A DNA stretch of 64,000 nt from Stenomitos frigidus ULC18. Lineage in GTDB: Bacteria; Cyanobacteriota; Cyanobacteriia; Leptolyngbyales; Leptolyngbyaceae. Position 1 is the first letter of the stretch; the number at the start of each line of letters is the position of its first letter. Location of the stretch: NCBI RefSeq assembly GCF_003003795.1, contig NZ_PVWK01000099.1, positions 62,001-126,000 on the forward strand, written 5' to 3'. The notes under the pieces are model-generated. The model ran no database searches, had not been told where the DNA came from, and worked only from the letters and a program-made list of their open reading frames with translations. The translations under genes and the position numbers were made by a program. Positions 23,001 to 32,690 of this stretch are shown here, piece after piece.

Positions 23001-24707
23001 GTCACTCCAGAGTACCTGATGAGTGCCAAGCAGCTTGAAATCAAGATGGCTCAGGGTGCAAAGCCTGGTGAAGGGGGACAACTTCCTGGCCCTAAAGTAA
23101 GTCCCTATATTGCGCTGTTGCGTCGATCGAAACCCGGTGTAACGCTGATTTCGCCGCCGCCGCACCATGATATTTACTCGATCGAGGACTTAGCCCAACT
23201 CATCTTTGATCTGCATCAAATCAATCCCGAAGCGCAGGTGTCGGTCAAGCTGGTAGCAGAAGTGGGGATCGGCACGATCGCGGCGGGTGTTGCCAAAGCA
23301 AACGCCGATATCATCCAGATCTCGGGTCACGATGGCGGGACGGGTGCATCACCGTTGAGTTCGATCAAGCACGCAGGTAGCCCGTGGGAACTGGGGCTAA
23401 CGGAAGTGCATCGGGCGCTGATGCAAAACGAATTGCGCGATCGCGTCTTGCTGCGCGTGGATGGTGGCATCAAAACGGGTTGGGATATAGTGATGGCGGC
23501 TCTCATGGGTGGCGAAGAATTTGGCTTCGGCTCCATTGCGATGATTGCAGAAGGTTGCATCATGGCGCGGATCTGTCATACGAACAATTGCCCAGTGGGG
23601 GTGACGAGTCAACGTGAAGAACTCCGCAAGCGGTTCCCTGGCATGCCCGAACAGGTGGTCAATTTCTTCTTCTTCATTGCCGAAGAAGCCCGATCGCTGC
23701 TGGCAAAACTCGGCTACCGTTCGATGAACGACATCCTTGGTCGAGCTGATCTGCTGAAAGTGCGGGAGGACGTGACGCTGCCCAAAACCCAAAGCTTGAA
23801 CCTCAACTGCCTGACGCAGTTGCCCGACACACGGGACGATCGCGCCTGGTTGGTGCATGAAACCGTACACAGCAACGGCTACGTCCTGGACGACGAGCTT
23901 TTGAGCGATCCAGATATTCAGGCATCGATCGCGAACCAGTCCAACGTTACTAAAGCGATTGATGTGGTGAATACGGATCGGACGATCGGCGCACGAATCG
24001 CAGGGGCGATCGCTCGTCAGTACGGCAACAGCGGCTTTGGTGGGCACATCACACTCAACGTCAAAGGTAGCGTGGGTCAAAGCTTCGGAGCGTTCAACCT
24101 CCCCGGTATGACGCTCAACTTAGAAGGTGAAGCCAACGACTATGTCGGCAAAGGCTTACACGGCGGCACGATCGTCATCGTGCCACCGGCGGCTGCGACT
24201 TACAGTCCATCGGACAACGTCATCATCGGCAACACCTGTCTCTATGGGGCAACGGGCGGTACACTGTTTGCCTATGGTCAAGCCGGTGAACGCTTCGCCG
24301 TCCGCAATTCCAACGCACAGGCAGTCGTTGAAGGTGCTGGGGATCACTGCTGCGAATACATGACAGGTGGCGTGGTTGTCGTACTGGGTCACACAGGACG
24401 TAACGTGGGCGCAGGGATGACAGGCGGTTTAGCCTACTTCCTGGATGAAGACGGCAGTTTCCCTACTAAAGTGAACCCAGAAATTGTGAAAGTCCAACGG
24501 GTGATTGCACCTGCCGGAGAGCAGCAGTTAAAGGAGTTGATTGAAGCACATGCCGATCGCACGGGTAGCCAAAAAGCCAAAACCATCCTGGCGAACTGGG
24601 CTGAGTACCTACCTAAGTTCTGGCAGCTTGTACCACCCTCTGAAAAGGACTCACCCGAAGCAAACCCCGAAGCGGTAACTGAAAAAGTGCTGACTCCAGC
24701 GCAGTAA
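20046..24707 (+). CDS. gltB: glutamate synthase large subunit, probably ferredoxin-dependent (GlsF)
   Basis: Makes two glutamates from glutamine and 2-oxoglutarate in the GS-GOGAT cycle. The 1553 residues hold four domains. The first is an N-terminal glutaminase with the nucleophile Cys in RDACGVGFI after a ~30-residue propeptide. A central domain follows. The FMN-binding synthase domain has [24 protein letters not shown] and [18 protein letters not shown]-terminal beta-helix ends the protein ([21 protein letters not shown]). The 3Fe-4S cysteines are in [15 protein letters not shown]. No gltD lies alongside and the length fits, so ferredoxin is the likely electron donor; the NADPH form cannot be excluded. 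An NtcA-type site lies upstream. Confidence 0.95.
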
Positions 24708-24730
24708 GTCAGTCAAGGCTTGAGTGAAAT

Positions 24731-24790
24731 GAAAAAGCGCCAGTAAGGTGAGTCATGTCCCAGCAAGCTCGCCTTCGGTGCTTTTTCTTT
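24731..24790 (+). terminator. probable terminator after glutamate synthase
   Basis: Nested complementary arms GAAAAAGC...GCTTTTTC and AAGGTGAG...CTCGCCTT (one wobble) form a long hairpin starting 23 bases after the stop. It is followed by TTTAT. Confidence 0.7.
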
Positions 24791-24880
24791 ATGACATTAT
24801 TTGTACTGGCAATAGGATGATGCTCTGAGTCTAATGAAGCAGTTCTTGGGGCAAAGGATAAAATTCGCTAAGATCAAGGC

Positions 24881-25174
24881 ATGAAATTTGAGTGGGATCA
24901 GCAAAAGAACCAGGCAAACATCGTAAAACATGGGCTTGACTTTGCAGATGCACCCAAAATTTTCAGACTACCGCTCCGTGTTTCCCTTGATGAACGGCAA
25001 GACTATGGGGAGGAGCGATGGATTGGCATCGGCATACTTGACGGACGGGTTATGGTGATCGTTTTCACAGAACCAGACGAGCAAATTATCCGTATTCTTT
25101 CACTTCGCAAAGCTCTGCCTTATGAACGAAAACGCTATGAACAGTTCCTCAAAAACGAATTGGGAGAAGGTTGA
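24881..25174 (+). CDS. brnT: BrnT family toxin
   Basis: A 97-residue DUF497/BrnT ribonuclease-type toxin. Its N-terminus FEWDQQKNQANIVKHGLDFADA is the family signature (FEWDxxKNxxNxxKHG). It continues with DERQDYGEERWIGIGIL and the core RIISLR-like RILSLRKALPYERKRYEQFL, with conserved Arg and His/Glu residues. BrnT cleaves RNA and is neutralised by BrnA. The downstream antitoxin frame overlaps its 3' end by about 50 bases, the normal brnTA order. No damage is visible, so the pair should be functional. Confidence 0.92.
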   Translation: MKFEWDQQKNQANIVKHGLDFADAPKIFRLPLRVSLDERQDYGEERWIGIGILDGRVMVIVFTEPDEQIIRILSLRKALPYERKRYEQFLKNELGEG

Positions 25175-25388
25175 CTTCCTCACGGACGAGGAAATTGATA
25201 CCTCTGATATTCCGCCATTAACTGAGGAATTTTTCAGCAAGTCGCGGTGGTGGAAACCTGCAGCGCCATTGAATGTCCTTGTGCAAGTCGATCCCAGCAC
25301 ACTCGCTTGGTTTCAAGCTCAAGGTAAGGATTACGAAAAGAAAATGGCTGCGGCATTACGGATCTATGCAGAAGCTCACAAACTATAG
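25122..25388 (+). CDS. brnA: BrnA family antitoxin
   Basis: An 88-residue antitoxin; the second Met (25137, MNSSSKTNWEKVDFLTDEEIDTSD) is an equally good start. The stretch TDEEIDTSDIPPLTEEFF and the C-terminal ribbon-helix-helix-like part VLVQVDPSTLAWFQAQGKDYEKKMAAALRIYAEAH are typical of BrnA. It binds BrnT and, as a DNA-binding complex, usually represses its own operon. It overlaps brnT, implying translational coupling. Confidence 0.88.
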   Translation: MNENAMNSSSKTNWEKVDFLTDEEIDTSDIPPLTEEFFSKSRWWKPAAPLNVLVQVDPSTLAWFQAQGKDYEKKMAAALRIYAEAHKL

Positions 25389-25564
25389 TCAAACCCAGTA
25401 CGATCGCCGATTACGTCGGAAGGATAAAGATCCTGGCTTTGACAGTAAACCTTAAGCATTTCCACATGGCGCTGGAGGTTCTAGAGTAAAGAAGCTATAC
25501 ATTTTGAGGAAACAAGCAGAATGGTAAATTGCTTGCATACGCACAAAATGAGGTCTTGCAGTCT

Positions 25565-25771
25565 ATGAGCTTTAATGATGTAGTCGAGGTAATCAAGAAT
25601 CTTTCTACAGATGAGAAGCGTGAAATTCAACTATTGTTGAGCCAATACCTGCGTGAGGAACGCCGTGATGAGATCTATAGCAACTTTAAGCTGGCGCAAA
25701 GCGAGCAGCAAAACGGTGAACTGACGTTTTCCTCCAATCTCAAGGAACTGAGGCAACTGCTAGAGGAGTAA
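25565..25771 (+). CDS. orphan antitoxin-like protein of a decayed RelE-type module
   Basis: A 68-residue protein from the ATG at 25565 (MSFNDVVEVIKNLSTDEKREIQLLL), with GAGG 11 bases upstream; an in-frame TTG at 25529 is a weaker start. It is a charged, helical protein of the type found as antitoxins in cyanobacterial type II modules. The frame of a RelE-like toxin begins 1 base after its stop but is interrupted by an amber codon. It may still act as an anti-toxin for related toxins, or be neutral residue. Confidence 0.7.
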   Translation: MSFNDVVEVIKNLSTDEKREIQLLLSQYLREERRDEIYSNFKLAQSEQQNGELTFSSNLKELRQLLEE

Positions 25772-25772
25772 C

Positions 25773-25889
25773 GTGGAAGTCAGTTTCAGTTCGACCTTCA
25801 AACGTGTTTTCAAAAAGCGCATTCTAGGCAATACCGATCGAGAGGCAAGATTTTAGCAAAAACTGGAACAGTTCACCGTAGATCCACCT
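25773..25889 (+). pseudogene. RelE/YafQ-like toxin remnant with amber stop and 3' truncation
   Basis: From a GTG one base after the antitoxin stop, the frame reads VEVSFSSTFKRVFKKRILGN then TDREARF, a TAG at 25854-25856, then QKLEQFTVDPP. This looks like the start of a cyanobacterial RelE-type toxin (usual pattern SFSSSFKRAFKK ... EARFWQKLE). TAG sits exactly where a Trp codon (TGG) is expected. After about 38 codons the similarity stops, so the catalytic C-terminal half is missing. The AIPR gene begins ~60 bases later. Confidence 0.72.
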
Positions 25890-25947
25890 GCTGAAGCTAG
25901 AGCAAACATTTTCTATTTTGAGATGGCAAAATATTTTCTTAGACAAT

Positions 25948-27720
25948 ATGAATCCACCAACACTTCAAGAATTCTCCTTAATTAGAACTAAAACAGACAG
26001 AAAACGGCAAGATTATGCTTTTCCTGATCTTACATCCGCTTTCTACTTCGTTGTTATAGATCTAATTCTTGGATTGCAAGAAGATGAAATACGAGACTCT
26101 ATAACAGATAGTAACTTTTTGAAAATTTCTAATCAACCATCTGGTCACGATAGAGGGATAGATGCTCTTTACATTGATGAGATTTCTGCACCCTCAACAG
26201 TTCATATGTTCAACTTTAAATATGCAGAAAACTTTGACAAAGCAAAGAGCAATAACCTTCCTTCGGGAGAAATCGATAAAATATTAGGCTTTATAAATGC
26301 ACTGAACCAGAAAGATGCAGCCTTACCTCAAGAAGTTAATGCAGTATTATCCTCGAAGGTTCAAGATATTTGGAGGCTATTTGAAAACGGCGATCCTAAG
26401 TTTATCCTTCATTTCTGTGCAAACTACTATAAAGGTTTTGAAAAAGCCGAAAGAGGTAGGCTTGAAAGAAGTGTTGGCAGAAATGTAGAAATCAAATATC
26501 ATTTGATGCCAGATTTATTTGAATCTATAGTTTCTAAAGATAAGCAAATAGTAGATGGAAGAATCAAGGCTATTAATACAGGTTTTTTTGAGAAATCTGA
26601 CGGGAATATTCGCGCCCTTATTGTAAATGTAGATGCAAGGGATTTAATAAGGATCGTTATTGACAACGAAGAGGTAAGAAGCAAAGCGGATATGACAAAT
26701 GATGAATATGAGGTGATAAAAAAATCAACTCTTCTGGAAGATGCGTTTAATGACAATGTGAGAATTTATCAGAAGAAATCATCAATCAATAAAAACATAA
26801 AATCTACAGCATTATCAGACGAAAACAGCAAATTCTTTTATTACAATAATGGCGTCACTTTGACATGTGATTCCTTTTCCTATTCTGACAGGCGCGCCCC
26901 AGTTATAGAGTTAAAAAATGTGCAAGTCGTAAATGGAAGTCAAACAATACATTCTTTGTACGAAGCCTTTTTGGAAGATTCAAGTAAATTTCGTGATATT
27001 GAGATTCTTTGTCGTATATGTGAAGTCAGAGATCCCGCTTTAAGTACGAGAATCGCAGAGTATACAAACAGTCAAAATCCTGTAAAGAGCCGAGATATAA
27101 GATCTGTAGACTTTATACAGCTAAGTTTGGAGAAAGAATTTCTCGTAAACGAAAAATTTTACGAGCGAAAGAAAAATCAGTATGCTGAAAAGCCTTTGAA
27201 TCAAAGGATAGATGCGGAAAAAGCTGGACAGGTTCTTATGGCTTTCTTTAACCGCTCTCCCTACGAAGCCAAGAACAGAAAAGGATTAATTTTTGGCGAC
27301 AAGTACGAGGAGGTTTTCAATGAAGAGGTCAATGCTGATAAAGTTTGGCTTGCATATAATCTTTTTGAGAAAATAGAATCGGAAAAAAATAAGATTAAAT
27401 TAGAAATCGTAGGTGATCAGTTATTATTTAGAAATAAGTCGTACATTCTTCATGCTTCTTACTACATACTTTATGTGATAGGAGAGCTTGCTAGACGAAA
27501 TAAAATCGAATTAAAATATTCTAACTTTCAGGAAATTTGGAGCCTTTACTCTGACTCAGTGAGTGTGATCGAAGCAACTATTGCCAAAGAACGAAGTGAA
27601 GTAGGTCAAAAGTATAATCACTCAACGTTTTTCAGATCAAACAAAAGTAAAAAATATTTTGAAGACTTGGAAGAAGTAGAGCTACTCAAGCTTCTAAGTT
27701 TAAGTGACATGAGTGTCTAA
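25948..27720 (+). CDS. AIPR (abortive infection phage resistance) family protein
   Basis: A 590-residue protein from the ATG at 25948 (MNPPTLQEFSLIRTKTDRKRQDYAFPDL); an upstream in-frame TTG at 25918 is less likely. The AIPR-family core is at about residues 300-350: FFYYNNGVTLTCDSF and VQVVNGSQTIHSLYEAF. It continues with IAEYTNSQNPVKSRDIRSVDFIQ. An N-terminal restriction-like region (GHDRGIDALYIDE; VHMFNFKYAE) resembles a PD-(D/E)xK-type fold. The gene is visibly A+T-rich and poor in HIP1 sites compared with its neighbours, suggesting recent transfer. AIPR proteins are linked to abortive infection and restriction systems. It is flanked by toxin-antitoxin remnants. Confidence 0.85.
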   Translation: MNPPTLQEFSLIRTKTDRKRQDYAFPDLTSAFYFVVIDLILGLQEDEIRDSITDSNFLKISNQPSGHDRGIDALYIDEISAPSTVHMFNFKYAENFDKAKSNNLPSGEIDKILGFINALNQKDAALPQEVNAVLSSKVQDIWRLFENGDPKFILHFCANYYKGFEKAERGRLERSVGRNVEIKYHLMPDLFESIVSKDKQIVDGRIKAINTGFFEKSDGNIRALIVNVDARDLIRIVIDNEEVRSKADMTNDEYEVIKKSTLLEDAFNDNVRIYQKKSSINKNIKSTALSDENSKFFYYNNGVTLTCDSFSYSDRRAPVIELKNVQVVNGSQTIHSLYEAFLEDSSKFRDIEILCRICEVRDPALSTRIAEYTNSQNPVKSRDIRSVDFIQLSLEKEFLVNEKFYERKKNQYAEKPLNQRIDAEKAGQVLMAFFNRSPYEAKNRKGLIFGDKYEEVFNEEVNADKVWLAYNLFEKIESEKNKIKLEIVGDQLLFRNKSYILHASYYILYVIGELARRNKIELKYSNFQEIWSLYSDSVSVIEATIAKERSEVGQKYNHSTFFRSNKSKKYFEDLEEVELLKLLSLSDMSV

Positions 27721-27794
27721 ATATGTTGTTGACTTTGTTTTTTAGAAGGCTGAATTTCTGATTCCTAATCCACTACTCAGATAGATGGAGGCTT

Positions 27795-28031
27795 ATGATT
27801 TCAGTCAATGAAGCTCAACAGCAGCTACAGGCTTTGATCGATGCAGTGAGCGAGTCGCATCAACCCGTTGTGATTGAAGGACACAATAGCAACGCTGTTC
27901 TATTATCTGAAGCTGATTGGGCTTCGGTACAGGAAACGTTGTATCTTCTCTCAGTGCCAGGGATGCGGGAATCGATTCGAGAGGGGTTGGCAACACCGAT
28001 CGAGGAGTGTGATCGGGCACTAGAGTGGTGA
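27795..28031 (+). CDS. Phd/YefM family antitoxin
   Basis: A 78-residue antitoxin. MISVNEAQQQLQALIDAVSESHQPVVIEGHNSNAVLLSEADWASVQETLYLLS is the standard Phd/YefM fold, and the C-terminal tail GMRESIREGLATPIEECDRALEW is the toxin-binding region. GGAGG lies 5-10 bases before the ATG. The partner YoeB-like toxin overlaps its stop but is cut short after 25 codons. It is now an orphan antitoxin unless a matching toxin exists elsewhere. Confidence 0.9.
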   Translation: MISVNEAQQQLQALIDAVSESHQPVVIEGHNSNAVLLSEADWASVQETLYLLSVPGMRESIREGLATPIEECDRALEW

Positions 28032-28105
28032 GTTGGAATCTGGTCTATACCAAACAGGCACAGAAAGATGCCAAAAAGCTGGCCTCTAGTAATTTACGAA
28101 CGTAG
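28028..28105 (+). pseudogene. YoeB/Txe-like toxin remnant, truncated after 25 codons
   Basis: A GTG overlapping the antitoxin stop starts VSWNLVYTKQAQKDAKKLAS and then SNLRT before TAG at 28103-28105. The beginning is the highly conserved N-terminus of YoeB-type toxins (WxxVYTKQAQKDAKKL). Intact members are about 85-90 residues, and the catalytic Arg, Glu and His all lie in the missing part. The following ~130 bases up to tex do not resume the toxin in any frame I can see. Confidence 0.8.
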
Positions 28106-28234
28106 CGCCCTTCGCCATAGATTGATGGTTTCAAACGTGCGATCGCTTGAGCAAAGTGCGATCGACTCAAAGCGTATCCCACATCCGCGACTCAAAGTCA
28201 GACTATCCTAGAAAAGCTGATGTAACGAACTGCA

Positions 28235-30568
28235 ATGCTGAACATTTCTCAACTGCTGGCAGACGAGCTTGACCTCAAACCGTTTCAGGTGAGTCACGCG
28301 CTCGAACTCTTTGCCGAAGGGTCAACCGTGCCGTTTATTGCTCGCTACCGCAAAGAGCGCACGGGTGAAATGGATGAAACCCAGCTGCGGGATTTGTTCG
28401 ATCGCTACACGTATCTGACCGAACTGGAAGAGCGGAAGGAGGCCATTCTGGAGGCGATCGCCCAACAGGGCAAACTGACTCCCGAACTGGAGGCAAACCT
28501 TACCGCGTGTCTGCAAAAGAACGAACTCGAAGATCTGTATTTGCCCTACCGTCCGAAGCGTCGCACTCGCGCCACGATCGCCCGCGAAAAAGGACTAGAG
28601 CCACTGGCAGCGTTCATCAAAGCGCTCAATACGCCAACAGCCGCACCCGCTGATCTGACAGCCGAAGCGGTGAAATATGTGTCTGAGGAGAAAGGAGTCG
28701 CAACGGCTGAGGATGCATTGAAAGGTGCGTCTGATATTTTGGCTGAGGAAGTAGCGGAAAAGGCGAATCTCCGGGCATATCTGCGCGAATACTTCATGAC
28801 AGCGGGTGTTTTGACCTCCAAAGTAAAAGGCGACCATCCCGAAGGCTCAACAAAGTTTGAGATGTATCGCAGCTATCAGGCGACGGTGAAGGCGATCGCA
28901 TCCCACAACCTGCTGGCACTGTACCGGGGCGAAACCGAAGGCGTGCTGGATGTGGCTTTGACCTTTGATGAAGACTCTGTGCTCGCCTATTTAGAGTCGC
29001 AGGAGCTACGGGCAAAACAGCGTGAAGTTCGCGCGTTTTATCGCGACATGCTGAAAGATGCCTTCCATCGGTTGATGAAAAACTCGCTGATCACGGAAGT
29101 GCGAGCGGCAAAAAAAGTGGAAGCCGATGTCGAATCCATCAGCACCTTTGAAGCCAATTTGCGGGAACTGCTGCTGTCTGCCCCGGCTGGGATGAAACCC
29201 ACAATGGCGATCGACCCTGGTTTCCGCACCGGTTGCAAAGTGGCGGTGCTCGACCAAACGGGCAAGTTCCTGGAATACCAGACCATCTTTCCCCACCAGG
29301 CAGCTGGACAGCGGGTGCAGGCAGGACGCACACTTGCCACGTTGATTGAGCGCTACCAGGTGGAATTGATTGCGATCGGCAACGGCACTGCCGGACGCGA
29401 AACCGATGAATTTGCCACCGAAGTCTTGCAAGCGCTGGAACGCAAGCCCGTCAAAGTGATGGTCAACGAATCAGGCGCATCGATTTATTCTGCCAGCCCC
29501 GTCGCGATCGCCGAATTTCCCGATCAGGACATCACGGTGCGCGGTGCCATCAGCATTGGTCGTCGCCTGCAAGATCCACTAGCAGAACTGGTGAAAATCG
29601 ACCCAAAATCCATCGGCGTAGGTCAGTATCAGCACGATGTGGATCAGAAATTGCTCAAGAAAAAGCTAGATGAAACCGTTGAAAGCTGCGTGAACTACGT
29701 GGGTGTAGACCTCAACATGGCGTCGAAAGAGCTTCTGACATTCGTTTCGGGCATTACGCCGACGATCGCCAATAACGTCGTGGCGTATCGTAATGAAAAC
29801 GGCGCGTTTGGCGATCGTCGTCAGTTGCTCAAAGTCCCCAAGCTTGGCCCCAAAGCCTTCGAGCAAGCAGCGGGCTTTCTGCGGATTCGCAATGGCAAAA
29901 ATCCCTTAGACAACACGGCTGTCCACCCCGAAAGCTATAAGGTTGTGGAAACGATCGCCACTGATCTGAGCGTGCCCCTAACCCAAATTACGCAGGTGGC
30001 GGAACGGCTGCAAAAGACAGACCTGAAAAAATATGCGACCGACGCGATCGGTGAACCCACCTTACGCGATATCATCGCCGAACTGGAAAAACCAGGACGT
30101 GACCCGCGTGCTGAGTTCAAATACGCCACCTTCAAAGAGGGCGTGAAAGAAATGTCTGATCTCACCGTAGGGATGCAACTGGAAGGCATTGTCACCAACG
30201 TCGCTAACTTTGGAGCGTTTGTAGATATCGGTGTCCATCAAGATGGGTTGGTGCATGTATCGCAACTGGACGATCGTTTTGTCAGTGACCCCAAGCAGAT
30301 TGTAAAAGTGGGTCAGGTAGTCAACGTACGAGTGTTGGAAGTGAACGAAAAACTCAAGCGCATCAGTCTTTCTATGCGTGCCGAAACCGCTGAAGGACAA
30401 GAGCGCAGCCAACCGAAAGCACCCCCATCAGCCCTTAAAACGAATCCATCACAGCCTAAATTGAATCCATCACAGCCTAAAAACAATCTCTCTCAGCCCA
30501 AAGCAACTGCAGAATCAAAACCAGCAACCCTGGATGATCTAAAAGCGAAGTTTGGTAAGAAGCGTTAG
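28235..30568 (+). CDS. tex: Tex family S1 RNA-binding protein
   Basis: A 777-residue Tex/YhgF protein. It has an N-terminal helical domain (FIARYRKERTGEMDETQLRDL), a YqgF RNase H-like domain with MAIDPGFRTGCKVAVLD, and the helix-hairpin-helix region. An S1 RNA-binding domain is at about 645-715 (GMQLEGIVTNVANFGAFVDIGVHQDGLVHVSQL). The C-terminal tail holds three imperfect copies of a Ser-Gln-Pro-Lys motif (NPSQPK, NPSQPK, NLSQPK). Tex is a nucleic-acid-binding factor affecting transcription and stress tolerance; the exact role in cyanobacteria is not settled. Confidence 0.95.
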   Translation: MLNISQLLADELDLKPFQVSHALELFAEGSTVPFIARYRKERTGEMDETQLRDLFDRYTYLTELEERKEAILEAIAQQGKLTPELEANLTACLQKNELEDLYLPYRPKRRTRATIAREKGLEPLAAFIKALNTPTAAPADLTAEAVKYVSEEKGVATAEDALKGASDILAEEVAEKANLRAYLREYFMTAGVLTSKVKGDHPEGSTKFEMYRSYQATVKAIASHNLLALYRGETEGVLDVALTFDEDSVLAYLESQELRAKQREVRAFYRDMLKDAFHRLMKNSLITEVRAAKKVEADVESISTFEANLRELLLSAPAGMKPTMAIDPGFRTGCKVAVLDQTGKFLEYQTIFPHQAAGQRVQAGRTLATLIERYQVELIAIGNGTAGRETDEFATEVLQALERKPVKVMVNESGASIYSASPVAIAEFPDQDITVRGAISIGRRLQDPLAELVKIDPKSIGVGQYQHDVDQKLLKKKLDETVESCVNYVGVDLNMASKELLTFVSGITPTIANNVVAYRNENGAFGDRRQLLKVPKLGPKAFEQAAGFLRIRNGKNPLDNTAVHPESYKVVETIATDLSVPLTQITQVAERLQKTDLKKYATDAIGEPTLRDIIAELEKPGRDPRAEFKYATFKEGVKEMSDLTVGMQLEGIVTNVANFGAFVDIGVHQDGLVHVSQLDDRFVSDPKQIVKVGQVVNVRVLEVNEKLKRISLSMRAETAEGQERSQPKAPPSALKTNPSQPKLNPSQPKNNLSQPKATAESKPATLDDLKAKFGKKR

Positions 30569-30682
30569 GAGAGGCGATTTCGCGATCGATTGCTCTGGTT
30601 GCATGCCCATGCTCGCGACAAGTGCTTTGATTTCGCCCTAGTTCGAGCACGATCACCCGCAGTGATAAAGCTGTTGTTGTTC

Positions 30683-30934
30683 TCATACCAGTTCTTCACG
30701 CATCACCTGCTCCAGAGACTTCTTCCCTTTCATACTTCGATTCGCTGTGAGCAAGACCATTTGATTTTCCTGTGCAAACTGCCAAACTACTCTGTCATCG
30801 CTAGTAATCGCTAATTCAATCGCTTCAAACGTGACAAAGCGAATTGGTAACAGATCCAACCAACCCAAACTAGCAATATTGCCTGACAAAAGCAGAGCAT
30901 GTCCCTCAAGATTGTGATCAACCAGAAAGATCAT
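30683..30934 (-). CDS. small PIN-like (DUF5615-type) protein, possible toxin
   Basis: An 83-residue protein, MIFLVDHNLEGHALLLSG at the N-terminus with an early Asp, then DRVVWQFAQENQMVLLTANRSMKG. The layout of early Asp, mid Asp and late LLTAN is that of small PIN-like nucleases of the DUF5615/Mut7-C kind. Its start overlaps the stop of a 60-residue gene by 4 bases (ATGA), the layout of a toxin-antitoxin pair. Close relatives are common in cyanobacteria without a proven function. The toxin role is inference. Confidence 0.62.
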   Translation of the reverse strand: MIFLVDHNLEGHALLLSGNIASLGWLDLLPIRFVTFEAIELAITSDDRVVWQFAQENQMVLLTANRSMKGKKSLEQVMREELV

Positions 30935-31113
30935 GTGTGGGACTTAAGTTGTGCTTGATGTTTTGCTTTTTGTGCTTGCAACTTCTCCCAAGCAGCCTCC
31001 ATACCAGGTCTGGGTGGCTTTTTCGCCAGTTGATCAAGGAGAGCACGATTTTGCTCTTCATAATACTGTCGCAGTTCTTCAGTTTCCTTCAGCACAAGGT
31101 GATACTCGTCCAT
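30931..31113 (-). CDS. small coiled-coil protein, possible antitoxin partner
   Basis: A 60-residue, highly charged protein: MDEYHLVLKETEELRQYYEE, then QNRALLDQLAKKPPRPGMEAAWEKLQAQKAKHQAQ. It is almost entirely helical, with a Lys-Pro-Pro-Arg-Pro break in the middle. The ATGA overlap with the PIN-like gene downstream indicates translational coupling. I recognise no named family. Confidence 0.6.
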   Translation of the reverse strand: MDEYHLVLKETEELRQYYEEQNRALLDQLAKKPPRPGMEAAWEKLQAQKAKHQAQLKSHT

Positions 31114-31196
31114 CGCCTACGCCAAGAACTAAGCCAACAGCTTGGACTACCTGATTTATAGGGTTTGGAAGGATTGTTTCCGCTATCTTTTGGCTG

Positions 31197-32690
31197 TTAA
31201 TCAAGCGCTTTGTTCGGTAGAGCTATGTGTCTATCCACTTGGAGGCTTGCCGAGCTATTCTTCGGATTCAACTGACAGATGAGCATCCATTGATCCAAAA
31301 GGAAGACTAAGAGAAAAAGATGGATCGAAGCTAAAAACTCGTGTCGTCGCAGAGGAAAAAGTAATGGTGGAAGGCCTTTGATAAAGCTAAAGACAAAGCA
31401 TCCATAGGCCGCTGCGGCGAGAAAACAACATATAGCTGGCTGCCTGGAAAATACGAGTTGGTTGGTATAAAACCAGGCAACTGAAATGAGTAGAAATGGA
31501 TAGCCTAAATAAAGATAGCGTTCGTGTGTTCCACAAAGCAAAACATTAAAACCAAGATGACAAAAGCCATGAAAAAAACATAACAGCGCCATTAGGTGAC
31601 TTTCTAACTTATCTTTTTGCTCAATCCAAACATTCTTCTTGAGAATTGTTGAAGCACCTTTAAAAGCGGTAAGTAAAAGAAAGGCAATGAATATCGAATA
31701 TGAAATAATTCCCGCTTTGTAGGGACTAATCGGATCCATCCAACTTCCAAGTTCTAGAGTGAAAAAAGGAACGTGAGAAGAAGAAGACATGTCAAGTCCA
31801 AGAAACATCCAAAGGTTAAATCCATTCACAGAAATTTTGTTTCCATATTCGCTACCTGCCCCTTTCAAAACAAACCAATAGCTCGAATGATGGAATTGCT
31901 CAGGTACTTCAAAAAAGCTATCTATATAACGGAAGCATAAAATAAAAACAATCAACGCTAAAGAAAGCCAAAAAAGACTTCTATATCTAAAGCTTTTCCA
32001 AAACTTCCACACGGTTATTAGAAAAAGGATAAAAAAGAACGGTAGCGAGAAGAGAGCAAGCTGCTTGGTTAAAAGGTAAAGACAAAAGCTCAGGATTCCT
32101 AAGAGCAAATAAATCCCACTTTTCCAGGCTTTTTGACTTCCAGCTTCAACACCACTTGCCAGCCAAGCTTTGAAGAAGCCAATGACAGACAGTAAGCAAA
32201 AGAATAACAAAATCCCGTCAATTTGCCCCCAGACTGCACTTCCCACCCAGGTGGATGGCATCATTAGTAGGATAAGTCCTATGTGAATGGGATGCCGAAA
32301 CCGCATCAGGCTGGCTAACAAAACAAAGAGAAGAAAATTTAAAGCATCAATGAATGCTAGACAATAGCGAAAAATTAAAATTGAAGTATTCCGTTCAGTA
32401 ATACCAAAAATAGAACTTATAGTATTGATTAAGCCTGCACTTACTGTTAGACCGACAACTGGATAGTTAGGAGGCAATTTGCTACAATATGCTGCATAGA
32501 TTTGCTGCCCCCAGCAATCTGACCAGCTACGAAATGTCTCCACATCTCCCCAGCTATAGTAATCGATATACGTCACAAGTAAAAAAGGCAAAGCGATTCC
32601 GAGCAGAATAAGAGATAGAACACAGATGCGCTTATTCCACCGATTCCGATCAATCAAAAAGTTGCTTAACAAATCAGTAAGGTTTTTCAT
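31197..32690 (-). CDS. multi-pass membrane protein, GT-C-type glycosyltransferase-like
   Basis: A 497-residue protein with 10 or more hydrophobic segments (for example VLSLILLGIALPFLLVTYI, ILSFCLYLLTKQLALFSLPFF, LALIVFILCFRYI). After the first segment an external loop contains YSWGDVETFRSW, with the acidic GD pair expected near a GT-C active site, and PPNYPVVG. Later come VGSAVWGQIDGIL and FNVLLCGTHERYLYLGYPFLL, similar to ALG6/ALG8- or mannosyltransferase-like GT-C proteins (GQxD and HERY-type motifs). It probably transfers a sugar from a lipid-linked donor. It is A+T-rich and poor in HIP1 sites, suggesting transfer. Confidence 0.75.
   Translation of the reverse strand: MKNLTDLLSNFLIDRNRWNKRICVLSLILLGIALPFLLVTYIDYYSWGDVETFRSWSDCWGQQIYAAYCSKLPPNYPVVGLTVSAGLINTISSIFGITERNTSILIFRYCLAFIDALNFLLFVLLASLMRFRHPIHIGLILLMMPSTWVGSAVWGQIDGILLFFCLLSVIGFFKAWLASGVEAGSQKAWKSGIYLLLGILSFCLYLLTKQLALFSLPFFFILFLITVWKFWKSFRYRSLFWLSLALIVFILCFRYIDSFFEVPEQFHHSSYWFVLKGAGSEYGNKISVNGFNLWMFLGLDMSSSSHVPFFTLELGSWMDPISPYKAGIISYSIFIAFLLLTAFKGASTILKKNVWIEQKDKLESHLMALLCFFHGFCHLGFNVLLCGTHERYLYLGYPFLLISVAWFYTNQLVFSRQPAICCFLAAAAYGCFVFSFIKGLPPLLFPLRRHEFLASIHLFLLVFLLDQWMLICQLNPKNSSASLQVDRHIALPNKALD

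Follow-up and report, generated by a model that had tools for sequence, protein, structure and literature searches.

An A+T-rich AIPR-family gene with a predicted FokI-type nuclease domain, apparently acquired by horizontal transfer

Introduction

What does an A+T-rich gene of the AIPR family do between gltB and tex, where did it come from, and can it act alone? AIPR proteins are widespread and are annotated as abortive-infection factors; in the literature that we searched, no mechanism for them was found. The gene lies in a window of 64,000 nucleotides (bases 62001-126000 of contig 139, from a genome of 6.98 Mb), which is the whole stretch of DNA analysed here. A first-pass annotation, made from the letters alone, had described it as a probably transferred gene that joins an AIPR core to a nuclease-like N-terminus. 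On balance we favour a more specific reading, namely a stand-alone anti-phage gene acquired by horizontal transfer, whose product would combine a FokI-type nuclease with a core of probable ParB/DndB-like fold that would bind DNA and/or a nucleotide.

Results

An intact AIPR gene of deviating composition

The gene sits where it had been placed, running on the forward strand from an ATG at 25948 to a stop codon ending at 27720, with zero internal stops in the open-reading-frame reading and a product of 590 residues. Its start is backed by alignment with the starts of two homologues (loci L006 and L007). PF10592 recognizes the AIPR core (residues 267-552) at 142 bits, its cut-off being 25, PHROG 1841 ('Abi alpha-like abortive infection mechanism') covers nearly the whole length (residues 17-572, E 6.6e-77), and the PADLOC AbiU model aligns its positions 232-528 of 537 to residues 256-569 with 158.9 bits. 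The nearest named relatives are cyanobacterial. The gene is a further member of the AIPR family.

Its composition is as unlike that of gltB and tex as had been supposed: GC (0.345) and GC3 (0.301) are the lowest among the 40 genes of the window, against 0.547 and 0.599 in gltB and 0.530 and 0.578 in tex, and its codon usage fits worst of the 40. The absence of GCGATCGC (HIP1) sites, which had also been put forward, is real, with none in the gene and 58 in the whole window; as evidence of transfer it is uninformative and was dropped, because 27% of all 1773-base stretches in the window lack such a site as well. A second A+T-rich gene lies at 31197-32690 on the reverse strand (GC 0.393, poor codon-usage fit) and encodes a probable membrane protein of 497 residues that matches no Pfam family.

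The protein is under constraint, changing slowly relative to silent sites (dN ~0.15-0.17 against a saturated dS, in comparison with L006 and L007). An Rfam search of 24000-31500 returned no match, and a promoter and terminator scan yielded barely more than shuffled sequence did.

A mosaic of toxin-antitoxin fragments

When its DNA is compared with that of 390 genomes, the region 24720-28200 falls into four stretches, each of which matches a different set of genomes. The stretches and the genes in them are as follows.

24820-25408: BrnT/BrnA stretch
24881-25174, forward strand: BrnT toxin gene, apparently intact, the upstream neighbour (PF04365, 85.7 bits)
25122-25388, forward strand: BrnA-like antitoxin gene (PF14384, 25.9 bits, slightly below the cut-off of 26.1)
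25505-25886: stretch of a RelBE/YafQ-type module
25547-25771, forward strand: antitoxin-like gene of that module (DNA match to intact modules, L152-L154)
25773-25886, forward strand: YafQ/RelE-like toxin remnant (compared with the intact L152 toxin; Pfam YafQ on the intact copy)
25929-27667, forward strand: AIPR stretch, the extent of the AIPR cassette, matched only by genomes G210 and G232 (73% identity) and more weakly by G046
25948-27720, forward strand: AIPR-family gene
27744-28109: YefM module stretch
27795-28031, forward strand: Phd/YefM antitoxin gene (PF02604, 62.3 bits)
28028-28105, forward strand: YoeB-like toxin remnant, ending after ~25 residues (intact copies in L155-L157; Pfam YoeB on the intact copy)

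Relative to the intact toxin, the YafQ-like remnant carries a Trp-to-stop change and has lost its distal half where it meets the AIPR stretch. Towards gltB, homology to congeneric genomes stops at 24706-24716; towards tex, it resumes at 28182-28198. In none of the six congeners does the ~6.5 kb read upstream of tex contain gltB. The four differently matching stretches, the truncated toxins, the breaks in homology and the lack of gltB near the congeners' tex together place the AIPR gene in a patchwork of toxin-antitoxin fragments whose position the congeners do not share. On the far side of tex there is a further toxin-antitoxin-like pair, made up of a DUF5615 toxin-like gene and a small partner upstream of it (30683-31113, reverse strand).

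Could the AIPR gene itself be decaying cargo in a gene graveyard, without present function? The truncated toxin genes that adjoin it would fit such a fate, as would the copy in Acaryochloris (L007), in which an in-frame stop follows codon 494 (L007:7483-7485) and homology continues past it. However, the open reading frame in the window is intact and its product slow to change, which makes this explanation very unlikely.

Horizontal acquisition

Four lines of evidence bear on the gene's origin. Besides its composition, there is its distribution: it is absent from all six congeners searched, one of which has a distant AIPR gene only, and the closest homologues, 71-75% identical, come from genomes that belong to other families within the class (G210, G232). 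Third, the order of identities is the inverse of that of tex, AIPR being 75% identical to the G232 copy and 52% to that of G046, and tex 69% and 79%, respectively. Finally, a tree of the core groups the gene with two other cyanobacteria (support 99), within a wider and moderately supported clade (85) of Cyanobacteriota, one member each of Bacteroidota and Clostridia, and a phage contig. Acquisition by horizontal transfer, as first proposed, is therefore well supported by these sequence comparisons.

A predicted FokI-type fold at the N-terminus

An AlphaFold2 model of the full-length protein (pLDDT 86, pTM 0.78) gave only weak Foldseek matches in the PDB (Shedu nuclease domain, E 0.26; RNA polymerase subunit 5), and the N-terminal domain was therefore modelled alone, with 44 aligned sequences. 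The regions distinguished below are referred to throughout.

25948-26553, forward strand: predicted FokI-type PD-(D/E)xK nuclease domain, residues 1-202 (AlphaFold2 pLDDT 94.4, pTM 0.90; Foldseek match to FokI)
26143-26223, forward strand: putative active-site hairpin, residues 66-92, from D68 and D72 (GHDRGIDA) to N89-F-K91-Y92 (FNFKY)
26554-27267, forward strand: AIPR core, ~residues 203-440, predicted to be ParB/DndB-like (conservation; viral Foldseek matches)
27268-27717, forward strand: C-terminal all-helical region, ~residues 441-590 (secondary structure of the model)

With the isolated domain, FokI takes the first two ranks in the PDB (E 4.4e-4 and 4.7e-4, probability 1.00), followed by MspJI (E 8.4e-3) and then the nicking enzyme BspD6I. 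At the sequence level, Smith-Waterman alignment to the cleavage domain of FokI, a comparison picked after the structure match and made with a sequence identical to that of 1fok, gives scores of 57 for the window protein, 71 for L006 and 84 for L007, with shuffles averaging ~30 (sd ~5); these three cyanobacterial copies are the top three among 189 real protein chunks. BLASTP of L006 against FokI, as one single comparison, gives E 5e-5. The scores of distant relatives are not clear (L010, 28; RE2010, 41), and hhalign of the family profiles against the single FokI sequence is not significant, though it finds the same register. Since this is so, the case for homology to FokI leans mainly on the fold and on the cyanobacterial copies.

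The Pfam FokI model PF09254 does not match the N-terminal domain at E 0.1, nor anything in 291 cyanobacterial genomes, where the control was likewise silent and the scan therefore uninformative. PF22879 (AIPR_N) misses the window protein and matches 15 of the 44 aligned N-terminal domains; some AIPR relatives, though not the window protein, match Mrr_cat weakly (best 1.2e-4); and no meaningful match came up when the protein or either alignment was run against PDB sequences. Nevertheless, the confidently modelled fold with FokI as its best PDB match, the similarity of the three cyanobacterial copies to FokI and the D72/N89/K91 motif bear out the nuclease-like region of the first-pass annotation, and we conclude that the N-terminus very probably has a PD-(D/E)xK nuclease fold.

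An earlier review describes AIPR proteins as carrying an N-terminal HEPN domain (PMC3506569), in which case the protein would be an RNA-cleaving suicide toxin. Against this stand the alpha/beta fold that matches FokI and the two Rx4-6H matches of the protein, which are not conserved in the family; the HEPN census, in those of its passages available to us, names AbiU2 and not AIPR (PMC3710099). We therefore rejected a HEPN N-terminus, which appears highly improbable. A FokI-type reading of the AIPR N-terminus was not found in the literature searched; as that literature is a part of what is published, and as an AIPR_N entry exists in Pfam, we make no claim of priority.

A putative active site with asparagine in the middle

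Both N-terminal motifs that had been singled out are present (GHDRGIDALYIDE at residues 66-78, FNFKYAE at 88-94) and conserved in the family: among 184 full-length relatives, D72 is kept in 175, K91 in 161, and position 89 is glutamine or asparagine in 162 (146 and 16, respectively). D72 and K91 would thus supply the aspartate and lysine expected of a PD-(D/E)xK enzyme, and the residue two before the lysine is asparagine in the clade of the window protein, not aspartate, glutamate or glutamine. N89 lies 17 residues after D72, and K91 two after N89, the same spacing as in D450, D467 and K469, the catalytic residues of FokI. As an unconstrained MAFFT alignment sets the hairpin one residue off the FokI register, we infer the pairing of the two triads rather than read it off an alignment.

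Has the asparagine inactivated the nuclease, leaving a DNA-binding regulator or a decoy? Glutamine is the usual residue at position 89, and the AIPR domain is also reported for DndB, which acts as a regulator (PMC3506569), so that a protein of its kind could be imagined here. However, the core tree shows two origins of the NxK form, which has since persisted across phyla alongside D72 and K91, unlike the decayed sites of MzaE. Furthermore, MspI has an asparagine (N117) at the same place (PMC7559349), and by this precedent the residue alone does not imply a dead enzyme. An inactivated nuclease is therefore quite unlikely in our estimation, and a catalytically active one with asparagine in the middle position is likely.

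Decay of the motif is instead associated with MZA systems. Where it is decayed, MzaC or MzaD is adjacent in 12 of 21 loci and any of MzaB, MzaC and MzaD in 15 of 21, whereas none of the 124 loci with an intact motif has any of these three adjacent. Since the decayed forms make up one clade, that of MzaE, and one odd sequence on the core tree, the association is close to a single evolutionary event. The loss would make sense in that MZA has a PD-(D/E)xK protein of its own, MzaD. The window gene was considered as a member of MZA and rejected, as the MzaE model gives 39.6 bits against a cut-off of 1050 and the neighbours are gltB, toxin-antitoxin fragments and tex. Elsewhere in the same genome, on contig 80, there is a four-gene MZA-like operon (L239:1655-9055; G000:C80:202000-218000) to which the MzaB, MzaC, MzaD and MzaE models match, all under the NCBI equivalog cut-offs, and whose AIPR protein has lost the nuclease motif. 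A Cas12k gene ~4 kb from it (L239:12848-15325, 409 bits against a cut-off of 150) suggests a CRISPR-associated transposon nearby.

The core and the company it keeps

In the core, N329-G-x-Q332 and N374-x-Q376 are invariant. Its viral Foldseek matches are weak and comprise the N-terminal part of GmrSD (E 0.047), DNA-sulfur-modification proteins (E 0.17 and 0.27) and ParB-like proteins. With the relationship to DndB that PMC3506569 gives for the core, they suggest a ParB/DndB-like fold.

Around related genes, restriction and modification recur. AIPR genes follow HsdR, HsdM and HsdS in L008 and L009, with an OLD-family gene next in L008, and a type ISP restriction-modification enzyme in L010; N6 methylases lie near those of L011 and L116, and PIN-domain toxins adjoin those of L006 and L151. 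The literature likewise reports a frequent association of AIPR with restriction-modification (PMC3506569; PMC5379612). One could thus take the gene for an accessory that has been orphaned from a restriction-modification locus, type I or of a similar kind, with little activity alone or in need of a partner elsewhere in the genome. However, the nearest relatives and the homologue in Salmonella phage RE2010 (F361_gp14) have no restriction-modification system beside them, and the neighbours of other relatives are of such differing types that no fixed partner was found among them. We consider an orphaned accessory unlikely. As the copies in L007, RE2010 and the window have no obvious partner gene beside them, the AIPR gene can travel alone. 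On an IMG/VR phage contig (L114, 7783-8960), a BglII-type endonuclease and an MT-A70 methylase are encoded directly beside the AIPR gene.

In phage RE2010 itself, F361_gp14 is flanked by the replication gene on one side and the portal gene on the other, in an interval that is a defence hotspot of P2-like phages (PMC9122126), and its record carries the note 'prevents superinfection'.

Discussion

What can be discerned about the role of this gene? A role in defence is likely, and it is rather probable that the gene performs its full function on its own. According to the model, the sensing and the cutting of invading DNA may be united in one protein. In such a mechanism, the core would recognize a feature of invading DNA or of the infected state, sensing DNA or a nucleotide and gating the nuclease; it would then release or dimerize the nuclease, which would cut DNA. 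The outcome would be destruction of the phage DNA or, with non-specific cutting, death of the cell. Abortive infection and direct restriction are indistinguishable from sequence, and the 'single-gene abortive infection' of the first-pass annotation is a hypothesis, some copies standing alone and others lying in restriction-modification loci.

More tentatively, and somewhat short of what we would call probable, most AIPR proteins could be one-protein, restriction-like defences built from a FokI-type nuclease and a ParB/DndB-like switch core. The MZA branch would then be derived, its original nuclease having been abandoned once a separate one had been acquired, and the NxK clade, to which the window gene belongs, would be active and have been carried across phyla by phages and islands. 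Naming a putative active site in a FokI-type nuclease domain opens the whole AIPR family to a direct mutational test, for which the RE2010 homologue in the P2 hotspot is an easy case, and it suggests how MzaE tolerates decay of the site.

How does the protein compare with known systems? With the FokI cleavage domain it shares the predicted fold, local sequence similarity and the D-(17)-D/N-x-K spacing, but it has asparagine for D467 and an insertion after the lysine, and its N-terminal domain is joined to an AIPR core where FokI has a sequence-specific reader of DNA. Mrr-type catalytic domains resemble the family in the GxDxGxD ... QxK pattern, a few AIPR relatives matching weakly, as noted above. 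Within the AIPR/AbiU family, the window protein is placed by a core far over its cut-off and by a nearly full-length PHROG 1841 match, whereas the PADLOC AbiU model covers its C-terminal half only. MzaE has a homologous AIPR core, but accompanies MzaB, MzaC and MzaD with a decayed nuclease motif, whereas in the window gene the motif is intact and none of these partners is present. Among the counterparts considered, F361_gp14 of RE2010 has the same architecture over residues 31-568 at 33% identity and a place in the P2 defence hotspot; it differs in being phage-borne and in having QxK where the window gene has NxK.
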